A DNA stretch of 64,000 nt from Anaerolineaceae bacterium (GTDB taxonomy: Bacteria > Chloroflexota > Anaerolineae > Anaerolineales > Anaerolineaceae), in contig JAENYZ010000006.1 of NCBI GenBank assembly GCA_016841525.1, forward strand, positions 1-64,000, written 5' to 3'. The notes under the pieces were generated by a model. It saw only the letters and a list, made by a program, of their open reading frames with translations, was not told the origin of the DNA and ran no database searches. Of this stretch, positions 34,373 through 39,125 are shown piece by piece (within the stretch, counting starts at the first letter, position 1; every line of letters starts with the position of its first letter). Both the position numbers and the translations under genes were made by a program.

Positions 34373-37024
34373 TTATTGCTGACCATTGGTCAATGAGATT
34401 TGTGTGGATTGTTCTAAGAGTGATAACCCGATTTCCTCGGCAAGTAAAGGCGCGTCTCTCTCGAGAAGAACGACCACTGTTGTCGGCTGACCCCGCCAAT
34501 CCGCAGTGGTGCCGGCGATAAACCAGGTGATCACTTGCTCATCCTGGGTTCCTACGTTTGATGTGATCTGCCAGTGCGGGGAATCAGGCGTTTCCAGCAG
34601 GCTGGTGATCCAGAAGGCTGCATCGGTACCCAATGCCTGAGAATTTTGTCCTAATTTTGAAAGAGTAATCCAGTTCTCGGTCGAATCTTGATAAGCGTTA
34701 ACAAGTCTGGGCGCGGGCAGGATGCCCTGATTTGTCAAAGCACTGGCGGCTAAAGCCATTTGAAGCGGTGTAAGATTGAATGCACCCTGACCTTTGTAAA
34801 GCGCTTCAGGTGTGTCATAATTCGGGGAATCAGCCTGGGCGACATTCAGACGAATATCAGGCGGTGAGAAGAAATTTAAATTTTGGAATAATTCAATAAG
34901 CTGATTGACATCCGTAAATTCAGCAAGTTTTGCCTGAACATCCTGGCACCCATGTGTCATAGCAGCTTGCCAGGTCAGGTCAGTGCCCGGGAAAGTCGCA
35001 CAGGTTTGCAATTGTGGAACACCATTCATTATGGAAAAGGGATCCTCATTTTGCTGGATAAGCTCAATTTGGGTCGTTGCAACGAAGGGGAATAGCGTAG
35101 ATCCCGGTGGGTACAAACCCTGGGTTGCTCGATTGACAAGCGGTGCGTCTTCATTATCAATCAGGTCTTGCCAACTATCTTCCAGCTTATTTGCATCAAA
35201 ATAGGGGTGGGATGCCATGGTTAAGATTTCACCCGATTGGGCGTTCATCAATACTATTGCACCTGGCTCCTCACCGAGCAAAGAATCTGCAAATTTTTGT
35301 AATTCAAGATCGATGGTTAGCCTGATATCCGATCCCTCGGGTGGTTGGTTATAAAGCAAATCCTGCCAGAAGATGGTCATTGCAGGATATGTTTCGTAAC
35401 CTCGCAAATAGTCAAACATACTTTCTTCAATCCCCGTTTGACCATAGGTTGGGTTCGTATAGCCAATTATTGGATAAAGCGGGATATGATTACTTTCTCT
35501 TTGGAAAGAACCTGTTTGACCAATGTTTGTAACTATGATTTGATTGTCCTGGTCAAGTATCTTTCCCCGTTCGCTAAAGCGATCATGAACAATCCAGCGG
35601 GGATTTTCAGGGCGATTGACTAGACTCGGCATGAACCAGAAAGATGCCAGACTGGTGACAATCATTTCTAAACCGAGAACAGCTATCAGAAGGCTGCTCA
35701 AAAGGATGGGTCGACGTCGTTGGACCATTTCAATCTGTGGATTGGCATGAACCCGTTTACTGATAATCAAAAGAAAAAGCATCGCAATAAAGGATACAAG
35801 TAGGGACGACCCACCATAGGACACAAAAGGCAGGGTAACCCCTGTCAGGGGGAGGAGTCCGATGTTCCCACCAATGATCAAAATGCTTTGAACACCAAAA
35901 TAAAAAGTTAAGCCTAATGCCAAATAGCGATCAAAGGAATGGTGGGTTGTTTTTATGAGCTTAATCGCTCTGTAGAGCAAAATGATGTAGAGTGAAATCA
36001 TCAAACCAGCGCCAAACAGGCCCAATTCTTCAGCTATTGATGAAAAGATAAAGTCGGACACAGACACGGGGATTAAGCCTGGGCTGCCCAAGCCGGGTCC
36101 TGTTCCAAAGATACTGCCTTCTGCAATTGCAATCAATGATTGAAGTATTTGATAAGATGCGCCTGAAGGGTCGCTAAATGGGTTCAACCAGGCATCAAAA
36201 CGCAGCTTGACGACGTCGATATAAAAATAAGCGAACCCAATAAGGATCGCGGCTAAAATAGGCGCACCATAAAAAAGGAGTTTGTTCCCTTTTGAGGAAA
36301 CGATCATGCCAACGTAGATCAAAAGAAAAATTGTAGCTGTTCCTAAATCCCTTTGAACGACGAGTAATGCCAAAGCAGAGCCAATAACAAATAAAGTAGG
36401 TAACAAGATATCGAATTTTTTGTAAACAAAGACCTGTCTATCTGTTAAGAAACTTGCCAGGAAAGCAATCAGAAGTATTTTTAAAAACTCTGAGGGCTGA
36501 AAGTGGATACCAAGGAATTCTAACCATAAAGTGGGTCCATTGCCTAAGGGATTGGTTCCCATGAAAATGGTTAAACCAGTCAGTAATAAACCTGAGATAA
36601 GCCAAATATATTTATAACGGCGCAAATAATCCAAAAAAATGGGGAAATTTAAGCCTAAAAAAACCAATGCTGAAGCTAATGCTATCCAAATTGATTGACG
36701 GAATCCTAAATTTGGATACAATCGCCAGATGGTCATTAATCCGATACCAGATAAAAGAGAAACTATTGGAAGAATATACGGATCTCTTTGGGGTAATTTT
36801 CGCGATGACTGATAATGCAGCAGCCCAAAAGCAGCTATCCAAACGGCTACCCCCAACCAATGATCATAGCGGTATCCTTCTGCCGCGCTATGGTAACGAA
36901 TCATCGGCGATATGGATAAGATGAGGGCAAATATGATTATAACGATTGCCGCTAGTGAAATTAATTTGACCTGAGTTTGATTTATGGGCGAACTTTTATC
37001 CCCATATGGAAAGATGTTGATCAC
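34373..37024 (-). CDS. RodA/FtsW polymerase fused to a degenerate penicillin-binding transpeptidase
   Basis: This is one 883-residue frame. Residues 20-425 are a SEDS glycosyltransferase of about ten or more helices. FQPSEFLK (175-182), NPFSDPSGASYQ with the conserved Asp285, GTGPGLG (307-313), EELGL (332-336) and LPFVSYGGSS (398-407) are all intact. Residues 475-880 follow class B PBP2/PbpA order (DRFSERGKIL, ASHPYFDAN, NRATQGLYPPGS). But the catalytic SxxK is STLF (Ser642, Phe645), the SxN position reads GCQ (692-694) and KTG reads NVG (823-825). The transpeptidase is therefore very probably inactive while the glycan polymerase should work. It is the last gene of the FHA operon, 2 bp after mtnP. 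SEDS and class B PBPs normally act as separate partners. Confidence 0.88.
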   Translation of the reverse strand: MINIFPYGDKSSPINQTQVKLISLAAIVIIIFALILSISPMIRYHSAAEGYRYDHWLGVAVWIAAFGLLHYQSSRKLPQRDPYILPIVSLLSGIGLMTIWRLYPNLGFRQSIWIALASALVFLGLNFPIFLDYLRRYKYIWLISGLLLTGLTIFMGTNPLGNGPTLWLEFLGIHFQPSEFLKILLIAFLASFLTDRQVFVYKKFDILLPTLFVIGSALALLVVQRDLGTATIFLLIYVGMIVSSKGNKLLFYGAPILAAILIGFAYFYIDVVKLRFDAWLNPFSDPSGASYQILQSLIAIAEGSIFGTGPGLGSPGLIPVSVSDFIFSSIAEELGLFGAGLMISLYIILLYRAIKLIKTTHHSFDRYLALGLTFYFGVQSILIIGGNIGLLPLTGVTLPFVSYGGSSLLVSFIAMLFLLIISKRVHANPQIEMVQRRRPILLSSLLIAVLGLEMIVTSLASFWFMPSLVNRPENPRWIVHDRFSERGKILDQDNQIIVTNIGQTGSFQRESNHIPLYPIIGYTNPTYGQTGIEESMFDYLRGYETYPAMTIFWQDLLYNQPPEGSDIRLTIDLELQKFADSLLGEEPGAIVLMNAQSGEILTMASHPYFDANKLEDSWQDLIDNEDAPLVNRATQGLYPPGSTLFPFVATTQIELIQQNEDPFSIMNGVPQLQTCATFPGTDLTWQAAMTHGCQDVQAKLAEFTDVNQLIELFQNLNFFSPPDIRLNVAQADSPNYDTPEALYKGQGAFNLTPLQMALAASALTNQGILPAPRLVNAYQDSTENWITLSKLGQNSQALGTDAAFWITSLLETPDSPHWQITSNVGTQDEQVITWFIAGTTADWRGQPTTVVVLLERDAPLLAEEIGLSLLEQSTQISLTNGQQ

Positions 37025-37026
37025 GA

Positions 37027-37893
37027 TTAATCCAGGTGTTTTTCAATCAATAACTTGATTTGGGTTTGCTTTATAGGATCGATGTGATCCCGGTTGGTGA
37101 TGAGTGCATTTTGCAGCGCATTTTGGCAATCACATTCAGCAGTTTCATCAATCATAATGACCATGTTTTTGATTGCCTCCTGGGCAAGGCTGATGTTTTT
37201 AGATAAGGTCCGAATGACCATATCAACGGTTACGGTCTCTTCACTGACGTGCCAAACGTCATAGTCTGTTACATGGGCCATCGTTGTGTAGCAAATTTCT
37301 GCCTCACGTGCAAGGAACGCTTCAGGAGAGGCTGTCATCCCGATAATATCAATTCCCCACTGCCTGTATAAGTTGGATTCCCCTTTCGTAGAGAACCTTG
37401 GCCCTTCAATGGTGATATAAGTCCCACCGCGATGATAAATTGTTTCTGTATTTTTGACAGCGTTCTCAAGGACATTTGAGAGATTTTCACAAAAAGGATC
37501 TGCCACACTGACATGTGCAACCAGCCCCTCGCCGAAAAAACTTCTTTCTCGTTTGTGTGTAAGGTCAAAAATCTGGTTTGGAATAATGATAGTGCCGGGG
37601 GCATAAGCTTCGCGCAATGATCCGCATGCGCTGACACTGACGATCCGCTTCACCCCCAGCTTTTTCAAGGCAAAGATATTTGCCCGGTAAGGGACTTCAC
37701 TTGGTGAATATGTATGCCCAATCCCATGCCGTGCAAGGAAAGCAACGGGTTTTCCTATCAAATTACCCAGAGTAATCGGGGCGCTGGGTTTTCCAAAAGG
37801 GGTATCAATTTCAATTGTTTCGATATCTGTCAGATCTTTAAAATTATACAAACCTGATCCGCCAATGACAGCCAAAATAGGGGTTTCGATCAT
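37027..37893 (-). CDS. mtnP: S-methyl-5'-thioadenosine phosphorylase
   Basis: The 288-residue length is typical of MTAP. Motifs are AVIGGSGLYNFKD (phosphate loop), LARHGIGHTYSPSEVPYRANIFALKKLGVKRIVSVSACGSL, YITIEGPRFSTKGESNLYRQWGIDIIGMTASPEAFLAREAEICY and the late DYDVW. MTAP releases adenine from methylthioadenosine, the by-product of polyamine synthesis. The adenine can be reused by the PRTase at 5733. Its position inside the fhaA-fhaB-rodA/pbpA operon is unexpected: 3 bp from fhaB and 2 bp from rodA. In Actinobacteria this slot is held by the phosphatase pstP. Confidence 0.94.
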   Translation of the reverse strand: MIETPILAVIGGSGLYNFKDLTDIETIEIDTPFGKPSAPITLGNLIGKPVAFLARHGIGHTYSPSEVPYRANIFALKKLGVKRIVSVSACGSLREAYAPGTIIIPNQIFDLTHKRERSFFGEGLVAHVSVADPFCENLSNVLENAVKNTETIYHRGGTYITIEGPRFSTKGESNLYRQWGIDIIGMTASPEAFLAREAEICYTTMAHVTDYDVWHVSEETVTVDMVIRTLSKNISLAQEAIKNMVIMIDETAECDCQNALQNALITNRDHIDPIKQTQIKLLIEKHLD

Positions 37894-37896
37894 GAC

Positions 37897-38337
37897 TTAC
37901 TCCAGTATGATATTTTGATTGATTCTAATTGTGATGTCTACTTTTCCCAGTGTTAATTTATCGCCATCTGTCAAAATTGTGCTTGTTGTAACCTGTCCTT
38001 GATTCAAATAAGTCCCGTTAGTGGATTTAAGATCCTCTACCCACCATTGTTTTTGTCGAAAAAACACCCTGCAATGTCTGAGTGAAATTGTTTCGTTATT
38101 TAAGAAAAAGTCAGAGGATGGGTCTCTTCCAAGGATAATTTCAGGTTGTCTGAATCGTTTTGTTATTTCTTCATCTTCGATTTTTACTGAGAGAAAAATT
38201 AGAGATGTGGTTTTCTCCTCTTTCAAAGCGCTTTCTCTTTTCAGATCCATGTAGATGGTATAAATTATCCACCCCAGAAATGTGTAGGACAATAATATGA
38301 GCAGTAAGCGAAGGGAGAATACTAATATGGCATTCAT
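37897..38337 (-). CDS. FhaB-like membrane-anchored FHA protein
   Basis: The 146 residues have one N-terminal helix (FSLRLLLILLSYTFLGWIIYTIYM), a charged linker and a C-terminal FHA domain (about 58-143). The phosphothreonine-binding residues are present: IILGRDPSSD (Gly-Arg), ISLRHCRVFF (Ser and His) and LKSTNGTYLN. It docks phosphothreonine proteins at the membrane. This matches FhaB/FipA of Actinobacteria, which couples Ser/Thr kinase signalling to septum and wall synthesis. Its start overlaps the fhaA-like stop (ATGA type, 38334-38337). Confidence 0.85.
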   Translation of the reverse strand: MNAILVFSLRLLLILLSYTFLGWIIYTIYMDLKRESALKEEKTTSLIFLSVKIEDEEITKRFRQPEIILGRDPSSDFFLNNETISLRHCRVFFRQKQWWVEDLKSTNGTYLNQGQVTTSTILTDGDKLTLGKVDITIRINQNIILE

Positions 38338-39125
38338 CTATTGTCACCTTCTAAATTGCTCCAATTATCCTCGATGGGTATTGCTGTTGTTGGATTTTCC
38401 GAGGTGATATCCTGCACAAAAATAAGGTTAACCATACCAATTCGAATGACATCCCCGGGTTGGAGAGTTGCCTGAGAAATTTTCTTTCCATTGATAAAAA
38501 GACCGCCAGTTGAACCCACATCAAAGATGATATAACGTTTGTTGATCGACCGCAGTTGTGCGTGGTGCCTTGATACGTGGGGTTCATTCAGGATTAAATC
38601 GTTCTCCGAGTGTCGACCGATATCAATTACTGATTTTTCAAGTGGAAAGTTTTCGTTTCCACCGACAATAAGATAAGCACGATCCGGGATTTCATCCTGA
38701 AGGCTTGGCCGTTCATTGTTGGGAATAGCAGCAGTGTCTGGCAGTACTTGTTTAGCAGGAGAGATACTGGCGTCCAGATAAAAACCCTTGCTTTGCATTG
38801 TTTCCTTGGGAAGGACTACTAATGTCGGAGGGTGATTAAACTCATAACCTTCAGAATTTCCTGTTTTATGTAGGAAATCCGCCATTTCATTCAAAATGTC
38901 CTGATGTGCTTTCCAATCATCAAGATCTTCCTCAGGCACATGAATTTTATATAGGTCAGGTGCTATGGCTCGATTTTCAGAGGCTGCTTTTGCATTTTCA
39001 TGCATCGCAGTCAATAAATCGTCGAAAAGTCTCCGAGGAGTATGCATCCCAGGAATTAGCCTGATGAGATTTTCTTCAAATAAGACACGTAAGCGTGTTT
39101 CAAATTGTTCAAGGTTATTATTCAT
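38334..39125 (-). CDS. FhaA-like protein (DUF3662 plus FHA)
   Basis: This is a 263-residue protein. Residues 1-115 match the FhaA N-terminal DUF3662 plan: LEQFETRLRVLFEENLIRLIP, PRRLFDDLLTAMHENA, APDLYKIHVPEEDLDDWKAHQDILNEMADFLHK. A linker leads to the FHA domain (about 150-245) with VIDIGRHSENDLIL, HVSRHHAQLR and VGSTGGLFINGKKI, so the phosphothreonine pocket is intact. In mycobacteria FhaA binds phosphorylated MurJ (MviN) and adjusts wall synthesis. No PknB-type kinase is in this window. The gene opens the operon and faces archease across a 30-bp gap. Confidence 0.87.
   Translation of the reverse strand: MNNNLEQFETRLRVLFEENLIRLIPGMHTPRRLFDDLLTAMHENAKAASENRAIAPDLYKIHVPEEDLDDWKAHQDILNEMADFLHKTGNSEGYEFNHPPTLVVLPKETMQSKGFYLDASISPAKQVLPDTAAIPNNERPSLQDEIPDRAYLIVGGNENFPLEKSVIDIGRHSENDLILNEPHVSRHHAQLRSINKRYIIFDVGSTGGLFINGKKISQATLQPGDVIRIGMVNLIFVQDITSENPTTAIPIEDNWSNLEGDNR

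Follow-up and report, generated by a model that had tools for sequence, protein, structure and literature searches.

A RodA–PbpA-type SEDS polymerase of Anaerolineae fused to a penicillin-binding protein without catalytic motifs, a likely activator or scaffold

What is left for a class B penicillin-binding protein (PBP) to do once its transpeptidase motifs are gone? The question is raised by a 64,000-nucleotide stretch from an Anaerolineaceae bacterium (assembly GCA_016841525.1, contig JAENYZ010000006.1, positions 1 to 64,000; hereafter the window). On its minus strand, at 34373–37024, an 883-residue frame with a GTG start joins a SEDS polymerase to a class B PBP. We consider it likely that the product is a RodA–PbpA-type SEDS synthase of Anaerolineae, in which the attached pseudo-transpeptidase acts as an activator or scaffold and crosslinking takes place in trans. 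The covalent pair had been recognized in a preliminary description made from the sequence alone. The list of open reading frames (ORFs) and the Pfam matches bear it out (FTSW_RODA_SPOVE at residues 108–424, PBP_dimer_2 at 486–567, Transpeptidase at 588–787). The same frame of the plus strand contains many stops. A chance frame or assembly artefact was ruled out by orthologues in many genomes. The coordinates of all features are given in Table 1.

The loss of all three transpeptidase motifs, as first described, was confirmed by alignments: STLF (642–645) stands for SxxK, GCQ (692–694) for SxN, and NVG (823–825) for KTG. The SxxK register is firm, being anchored by the conserved N631, R632, Q635, and G641, and so is that of SxN, through alignment to Mycobacterium tuberculosis PbpA. 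The KTG register is uncertain. The Lys column falls on W818 in one alignment and on N823 in another; both residues lie on the predicted strand 817–825, and neither is Lys. Below, a PBP with at most 3 of the 7 catalytic residues is called dead. The preliminary description had left room for a catalytic Ser and Lys elsewhere in the domain. No transpeptidase column of the dead rows has more than 9 Lys of 110, against two columns with Lys in 50/50 active relatives, and relocated catalytic residues were rejected. Because the nucleophile–lysine pair is absent, we strongly infer that the fusion forms no crosslinks.

The SEDS half matches PF01098 with 231.5 bits (cut-off 26.4) and stays below the NCBIfam equivalog cut-offs for ftsW (237.7 vs. 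337.5) and rodA_shape (202.5 vs. 336.7). The catalytic Asp had at first been placed in NPFSDPSG. This had to be corrected: D285 of that loop is variable (D 64, E 28, A 8, G 4, and N 4 of 111 rows, for the five commonest residues), and the actual catalytic residue is D324 in SDFIF, aligned to Asp262 of Escherichia coli RodA (8tj3_B), which is named as the catalytic Asp in the consulted part of PMC10449877. D324, E179, R275, and P319 are invariant in every row that could be read (110/110, including that of the window; L223, the one remaining row of 111, has X at 324). Since its catalytic residues are invariant, the SEDS half would be expected to polymerise lipid II. It is the third SEDS gene of the genome; one of the two others adjoins, and one lies near, a motif-bearing class B PBP gene.

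The AF2 model of the full chain (34 sequences) had a mean predicted local distance difference test (pLDDT) of 90.1 and a predicted template modelling score (pTM) of 0.86. In structural comparison (VIA), model residues 80–430 matched Pseudomonas aeruginosa FtsW (8bh1_A) with Z 37.6 and a root mean square deviation (rmsd) of 2.2 over 330 residues. The ten best rows for the PBP half were PbpA-type PBPs of Atopobium parvulum and M. tuberculosis (Z 39.7–40.9, rmsd 2.7–3.0 over 366–378 residues), among them 4r3j_A (Z 40.9) and M. tuberculosis PbpA 3un7_B (Z 39.7). The dead half is thus predicted to keep the PbpA fold. Transpeptidase fold and pedestal, as expected of a class B PBP, are present (Z of about 40; PF21922 and a partial PF00905 match covering profile positions 1–192 of 299 with 63 bits); the SxxK, SxN, and KTG signature of the class is absent. 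A variant without the SxN-bearing subdomain (L106) was still modelled with confidence (pLDDT 87.7). It matched the same PBPs with TMt 0.61–0.66, compared to 0.72–0.78 for the full fusion, and its SEDS fold matched 6pl5_A with TMt 0.86.

Both marks of the PbpA subfamily, a PBP_dimer_2 domain and a neighbourhood with FhaA and FhaB genes, were found. In actinobacteria, the locus reads fhaA-fhaB-pstP-rodA-pbpA-pknA-pknB. The fusion resembles actinobacterial RodA–PbpA in its PBP_dimer_2 pedestal, its PbpA fold, and the FhaA/FhaB-like genes upstream. It differs in that M. tuberculosis PbpA has the catalytic residues, which are missing here, and in that the two proteins are fused. Of the 38 named Chloroflexota loci (L100–L136, L139), 31 have genes like fhaA and fhaB upstream; four of the seven others start at or near a contig end.

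The fusion protein (P0001) served as query against 296 genomes from the class. Among the matches listed, ordered by likeness to P0001 and thus a non-random draw, 138 loci from 137 genomes form the class set (30, 60, and 48 from three rounds of retrieval). The PBP was scorable in 122; the other 16 had no PBP match and were left uncounted, some running off contigs and some having only a distant SEDS. Dead PBPs were found in 112/122 scorable loci, comprising 73/73 fused, 38/48 split, and one PBP-only locus, so the loss asked about in the preliminary description is clade-wide. None of these 112 rows has the SxxK Lys or the SxN Asn, and one (L198) has the KTG Lys. The remaining ten loci are all split, and nine score 7/7; in the split locus L185, SxxK and SxN are present and the sequence is cut off before KTG. 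In the genus of the window, 8/8 relatives read as dead (G239/L011; L232–L238). In one of these congeners (L238, G302), the SEDS and PBP halves lie in two overlapping frames, a frameshift or an assembly error. Five rows with a PBP from other families are likewise motif-less, and two more had no PBP match.

Named relatives, of which the best 80 of 561 were kept, are Anaerolineae and records labelled Chloroflexota; the genomes of Levilinea saccharolytica, Leptolinea sp. HRD-7, and Pelolinea submarina carry the gene fused and dead. Among the 43 named loci L137–L179, considered as lying outside the class, 40 keep all seven residues; the three that do not (L139, L150, L163) are all labelled Chloroflexi bacterium. 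The intact fused pairs are three of Dehalococcoidia type (L145, L147, L151) and one of Lachnospiraceae (L167). The former are intact SEDS–PbpA fusions and apparently represent an independent fusion event. One of the three is labelled Dehalococcoides mccartyi; since this genus, to our knowledge, lacks peptidoglycan, the label of that metagenome-assembled genome is doubtful. Twenty loci from other classes of the phylum were picked by hand for the motif check. Only L246 (G321), a dead 887-residue fused frame, lacked all three motifs; the other 19 had SxxK- and KTG-type motifs, with SCD in place of SxN in L253. A search of viral contigs found no relative.

Two quick trees, both without bootstrap, were used to trace the loss. 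In the SEDS-half tree, all 113 dead rows fall into a single clade of 130, together with the intact L087, 13 unscored rows, and the three intact fused Dehalococcoidia-type rows, whose place inside it on a branch of 1.84 is probably due to long-branch attraction. The other 19 split intact rows all fall outside. The preliminary description regarded an intact SxxK within the clade as evidence against its reading. Ten split orthologues of the class are indeed intact; nine of them branch outside the clade of dead rows. L087, the tenth, has L198, a recently deleted row from the same genus, as its sister. These orthologues date the loss without refuting it. The second tree leaves out 12 rows with long branches or many gaps (dead, intact, and unscored) as well as the two outgroup paralogues, and includes four additional rows. 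It gives three dead/intact changes (the large clade, L198, and L246), two of them forced by well-supported branches, seven changes between fused and split, and five losses of the SxN-bearing subdomain, one of which concerns a row (L195) that is merely a cut contig.

Catalysis thus appears to have been lost two or three times, and a strictly single origin was rejected since L198 and L246 stand apart. L246 groups with intact pairs (98% SH-aLRT) and is probably an independent loss. In L198 (2631–3767), everything from the SxxK Ser up to the VTPLQMAL helix is gone and replaced by low-complexity filler rich in E, L, and G, and KTGT is kept; its sister L087, of the same genus, has all motifs. The pair looks like a recent transition and gives the clearest snapshot of the loss. 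For the large clade, the simplest reading is that catalysis was lost ahead of fusion; fusion followed by fission would be another route. Deadness does not hinge on fusion: 38 of the 48 split class pairs are dead as well. Fusion as the cause of deadness was rejected because of these split pairs and of the four fused pairs outside the class that are intact.

The ratio of nonsynonymous to synonymous substitution rates (dN/dS) was determined against two congeners (about 92% identity). The PBP half gave 0.080 and 0.075, much like the SEDS half with 0.078 and 0.075. Over 15 more distant dead pairs (a row may occur in more than one of them), hereafter the wider pairs, the ratio was about 0.10–0.29 for the PBP half and about 0.03–0.14 for the SEDS half. 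In the one intact pair tested, the PBP half had the lower ratio. The dead half is thus under purifying selection, relaxed yet present in the wider pairs, where its ratio is the higher one in all 15; a pseudogene was rejected on the same values. Mean pairwise identity was compared between 110 dead and 50 intact rows (two of the 112 dead rows, with ≤300 PBP residues, were excluded), sets that differ in phylogenetic breadth. It was 0.431 vs. 0.331 for the pedestal, 0.326 vs. 0.399 for the whole transpeptidase domain, 0.503 vs. 0.751 for the SxxK region, and 0.253 vs. 0.488 for the C strands; in dead rows, the alpha subdomain reached 0.212. Within the dead set, the pedestal is more conserved than the transpeptidase domain, and within the intact set the order is reversed. 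Purifying selection fits an activator or scaffold retained for its fold. Of the original proposal of an allosteric activator or scaffold, retention is therefore in agreement with the data, and the allosteric function itself is something we infer.

In the mechanism we propose, a class B PBP partner turned pseudo-transpeptidase is covalently attached to a SEDS half that would polymerise lipid II. Its transmembrane (TM) helix and pedestal may keep the polymerase active, or bring it into its active state, and may dock regulators; the emptied transpeptidase lobe would be retained as a fold and no longer as an enzyme. According to the consulted parts of three reports on RodA–PBP2, polymerisation by RodA is stimulated by the TM helix of PBP2 (PMC10449877), and RodA is activated when PBP2 opens (PMC10257715) and likewise by PBP2(L61R) (PMC6207328). 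Because of these reports, the TM helix and pedestal can, by analogy, be expected to keep the SEDS half active. Crosslinking in trans could fall to MecA_N-type, FtsI-like, or PBP2-like PBPs, a class A PBP, or L,D-transpeptidases, all of which are represented in the genome.

The preliminary description called for a search for separate active class B PBPs, and the search found motif-bearing ones. The genome of the window encodes five further PF00905 proteins: one FtsI-like, one PBP2-like beside a SEDS gene (both labels assigned from neighbours and Pfam domains), two neighbouring MecA_N-type PBPs, and a class A PBP that also has a transglycosylase domain and whose motifs were read by eye. The four class B PBPs carry SxxK, SxN, and KTG. 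There are also six YkuD matches. MecA_N PBPs were found in 47/51 genomes with a dead pair, 5/10 with an intact pair, and 18/44 without a pair (Fisher p = 1e-7, relatedness ignored). The genomes were hand-picked (64 + 43), with G200 and G082 excluded since no PBP was found there. A genome was counted as "without a pair" if its best match to P0001 was no stronger than 2.8e-47; G198, which has a distant SEDS match (L207), G110, and G138 are borderline in this group. Within families, the counts for dead vs. no pair were 6/7 vs. 0/5 in f6, 7/7 vs. 0/3 in f45, and 2/5 vs. 0/1 in f50, and the contrast rests on f6 and f45. The co-occurrence, confounded by kinship, is suggestive. It recalls an arrangement in Bacillus subtilis, where, according to the consulted part of PMC5656894, a PBP 2B without catalytic activity can support division as long as PBP 3, which is related to Staphylococcus aureus PBP 2A, provides the catalysis. 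The two neighbouring MecA_N-type genes of the window's genome lie at G000:C1:250450-253705 (L002, L003), and several congeners have two neighbouring PF00905 genes of similar sizes.

Several observations weigh against an activator or scaffold with crosslinking in trans. Much of the transpeptidase domain is expendable, since the SxN-bearing subdomain is absent in 50/111 dead rows (at least one of which, L195, is just a cut contig). In 15/15 wider dead pairs, the PBP half changes more quickly than the SEDS half, a difference that is slight or missing in the intact pair and against the congeners. The difference in breadth between the dead and intact sets makes the within-set contrast in identity the safer one. 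The gene can also be absent: G229, of the same family, 99% complete and on a single contig, had no strong match. As for the crosslinkers, MecA_N is missing from 4/51 dead-pair genomes, and it is present in all genomes tested of families f21 and f35, which offer no contrast.

The dead lobe might instead serve to bind or sense a partner (nascent stem peptides, some regulator, or the FhaA/FhaB signalling neighbours) and so set the place or time of SEDS activity, without being an allosteric activator. The kept fold and the upstream fhaA and fhaB genes would suit this, as would a Cys pair (C675 in 59/110 and C693 in 60/110 dead rows) about as frequent as the retained subdomain (61/111). However, the least conserved parts, the alpha subdomain and the C strands, lie in this very lobe, and four or five deletions of the SxN-bearing subdomain argue against a conserved ligand site; we regard this as unlikely. 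That the SEDS product is meant to be uncrosslinked or non-standard, such as a sheath strand or a poorly crosslinked layer, with crosslinking lost as unwanted, seems decidedly unlikely to us. It would agree with catalysis having been lost separately, two or three times, within one SEDS–PBP type and with the two further SEDS genes kept near motif-bearing PBPs, but the catalytic residues of the SEDS half show no change, and MecA_N crosslinkers tend to be found in the same genomes.

A decaying remnant that persists through its fusion to the SEDS half would explain the faster evolution of the PBP half in the 15 wider pairs, the repeated deletions, and the split frames of L238. It is very improbable given that 38 split pairs still carry a dead PBP as a gene of its own and that dN/dS is 0.075–0.080 in the genus of the window. 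Acyl transfer with a relocated nucleophile or base is barely credible. Its candidate would be S605, which is Ser in 108/110 dead rows; since the residue is Ser in 44/50 intact rows too, it is probably structural, and there is no Lys column to accompany it. We therefore return to the pseudo-transpeptidase as activator or scaffold, and incline to the wider view that the two jobs of the SEDS–class B PBP synthase have been separated more than once, with PbpA of Anaerolineae becoming a dedicated, covalently attached pseudoenzyme activator. The polymerase would then make glycan with no crosslinker of its own and leave crosslinking to other enzymes acting in trans (PBPs of the MecA_N type and perhaps L,D-transpeptidases). 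If true, the fusion would amount to a separation-of-function allele of the SEDS–class B PBP machine that arose in nature.

The fusion in itself is not new, and engineered inactive class B PBPs are also known. Like RodA–PBP2 of E. coli and Thermus thermophilus, the window's protein has the SEDS fold and catalytic residues, and its PBP is joined behind the SEDS C-terminus as in the synthetic RodA–PBP2 fusions described in parts of PMC10449877 and PMC6207328. Unlike it, PBP2 is a penicillin-binding transpeptidase that is labelled with bocillin; natural single-ORF SEDS–PBP fusions are mentioned as well (both in the consulted part of PMC10449877). The intact natural fusions in our set (L145/L147/L151, L167) also have SEDS and PBP in one frame but keep all seven catalytic residues. 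Catalytic mutants of B. subtilis PBP 2B and Clostridioides difficile SpoVD point to a catalysis-independent role of class B PBPs in division, as stated in excerpts of PMC5656894 and PMC12713402. Those mutants were engineered, whereas here the loss arose in nature, spans a clade, and often comes with the deletion of a subdomain. In a literature search covering titles, abstract openings, and open-licence full texts, no naturally dead, clade-wide SEDS-partner PBP was found, which is weak evidence of absence, and a search on Anaerolineae cell-wall synthases found nothing relevant.

Engineered mutants have been used before to ask if a class B PBP matters for its chemistry or for its hold on the SEDS polymerase. 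Here nature appears to have stripped the active site on two or three occasions while retaining the remainder, and almost half of the dead rows have lost the SxN-bearing subdomain as well. What is left marks the parts that the polymerase may still need: the TM helix, the pedestal, and the central fold. The family also offers single-chain SEDS synthases for biochemistry, predicted to be blind to beta-lactams. Since isolate genomes (those of L. saccharolytica, Leptolinea sp. HRD-7, and P. submarina) contain the gene, it is experimentally approachable.

Table 1. Features of the fusion gene and its upstream neighbours (window positions; residues refer to the 883-residue product)
Feature	Position	Strand	Basis
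SEDS::pseudo-PBP fusion gene, 883 aa, GTG start	34373..37024, stop included	-	ORF list, Pfam, AF2
Two N-terminal helices, residues 13-76, preceding SEDS core	36797..36988	-	AF2 H13-44, H55-76
SEDS polymerase core, residues ~81-430	35735..36784	-	PF01098 231.5 bits; VIA match to FtsW
Catalytic Asp D324, SEDS half	36053..36055	-	Alignment to 8tj3_B; equivalent of E. coli RodA Asp262
D285 of NPFSDPSG, variable, non-catalytic	36170..36172	-	Residue counts, 111 rows
TM helix of PBP half, residues 440-463, immediately after SEDS core	35636..35707	-	AF2 H440-463
Pedestal / PBP_dimer_2, residues ~464-567	35324..35635	-	PF21922 31.0 bits, cut-off 27
Dead transpeptidase domain, residues 568-883	34376..35323	-	Partial PF00905; VIA
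SxxK position, STLF, residues 642-645	35090..35101	-	Alignments
SxN position, GCQ, residues 692-694, Cys693 retained	34943..34951	-	Alignments
KTG strand HWQITSNVG, residues 817-825, no Lys	34550..34576	-	Alignments and AF2 strand
Nucleoside-phosphorylase-family gene, 2 bases upstream of fusion	37027..37893	-	PF01048
FhaB-like FHA protein	37897..38337	-	PF00498; conserved neighbour
FhaA-like FHA protein	38334..39125	-	PF12401 FhaA_N and PF00498; conserved neighbour

The two N-terminal helices are probably extra relative to the SEDS core; the alignment of E. coli RodA to the fusion begins only at residue 81. Upstream of the fusion gene, the FhaA-like, FhaB-like, and phosphorylase genes form a tight same-strand run, in which the two FHA genes overlap by 4 bases. 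The nucleoside-phosphorylase gene, which we take to be MTAP-like, is a usual neighbour, occurring together with fhaA and fhaB in 29 of the 38 named Chloroflexota loci. It sits between fhaB and the SEDS::PBP gene, a salvage enzyme travelling with a wall synthase, and it is also found directly upstream of an intact split pair (L130).

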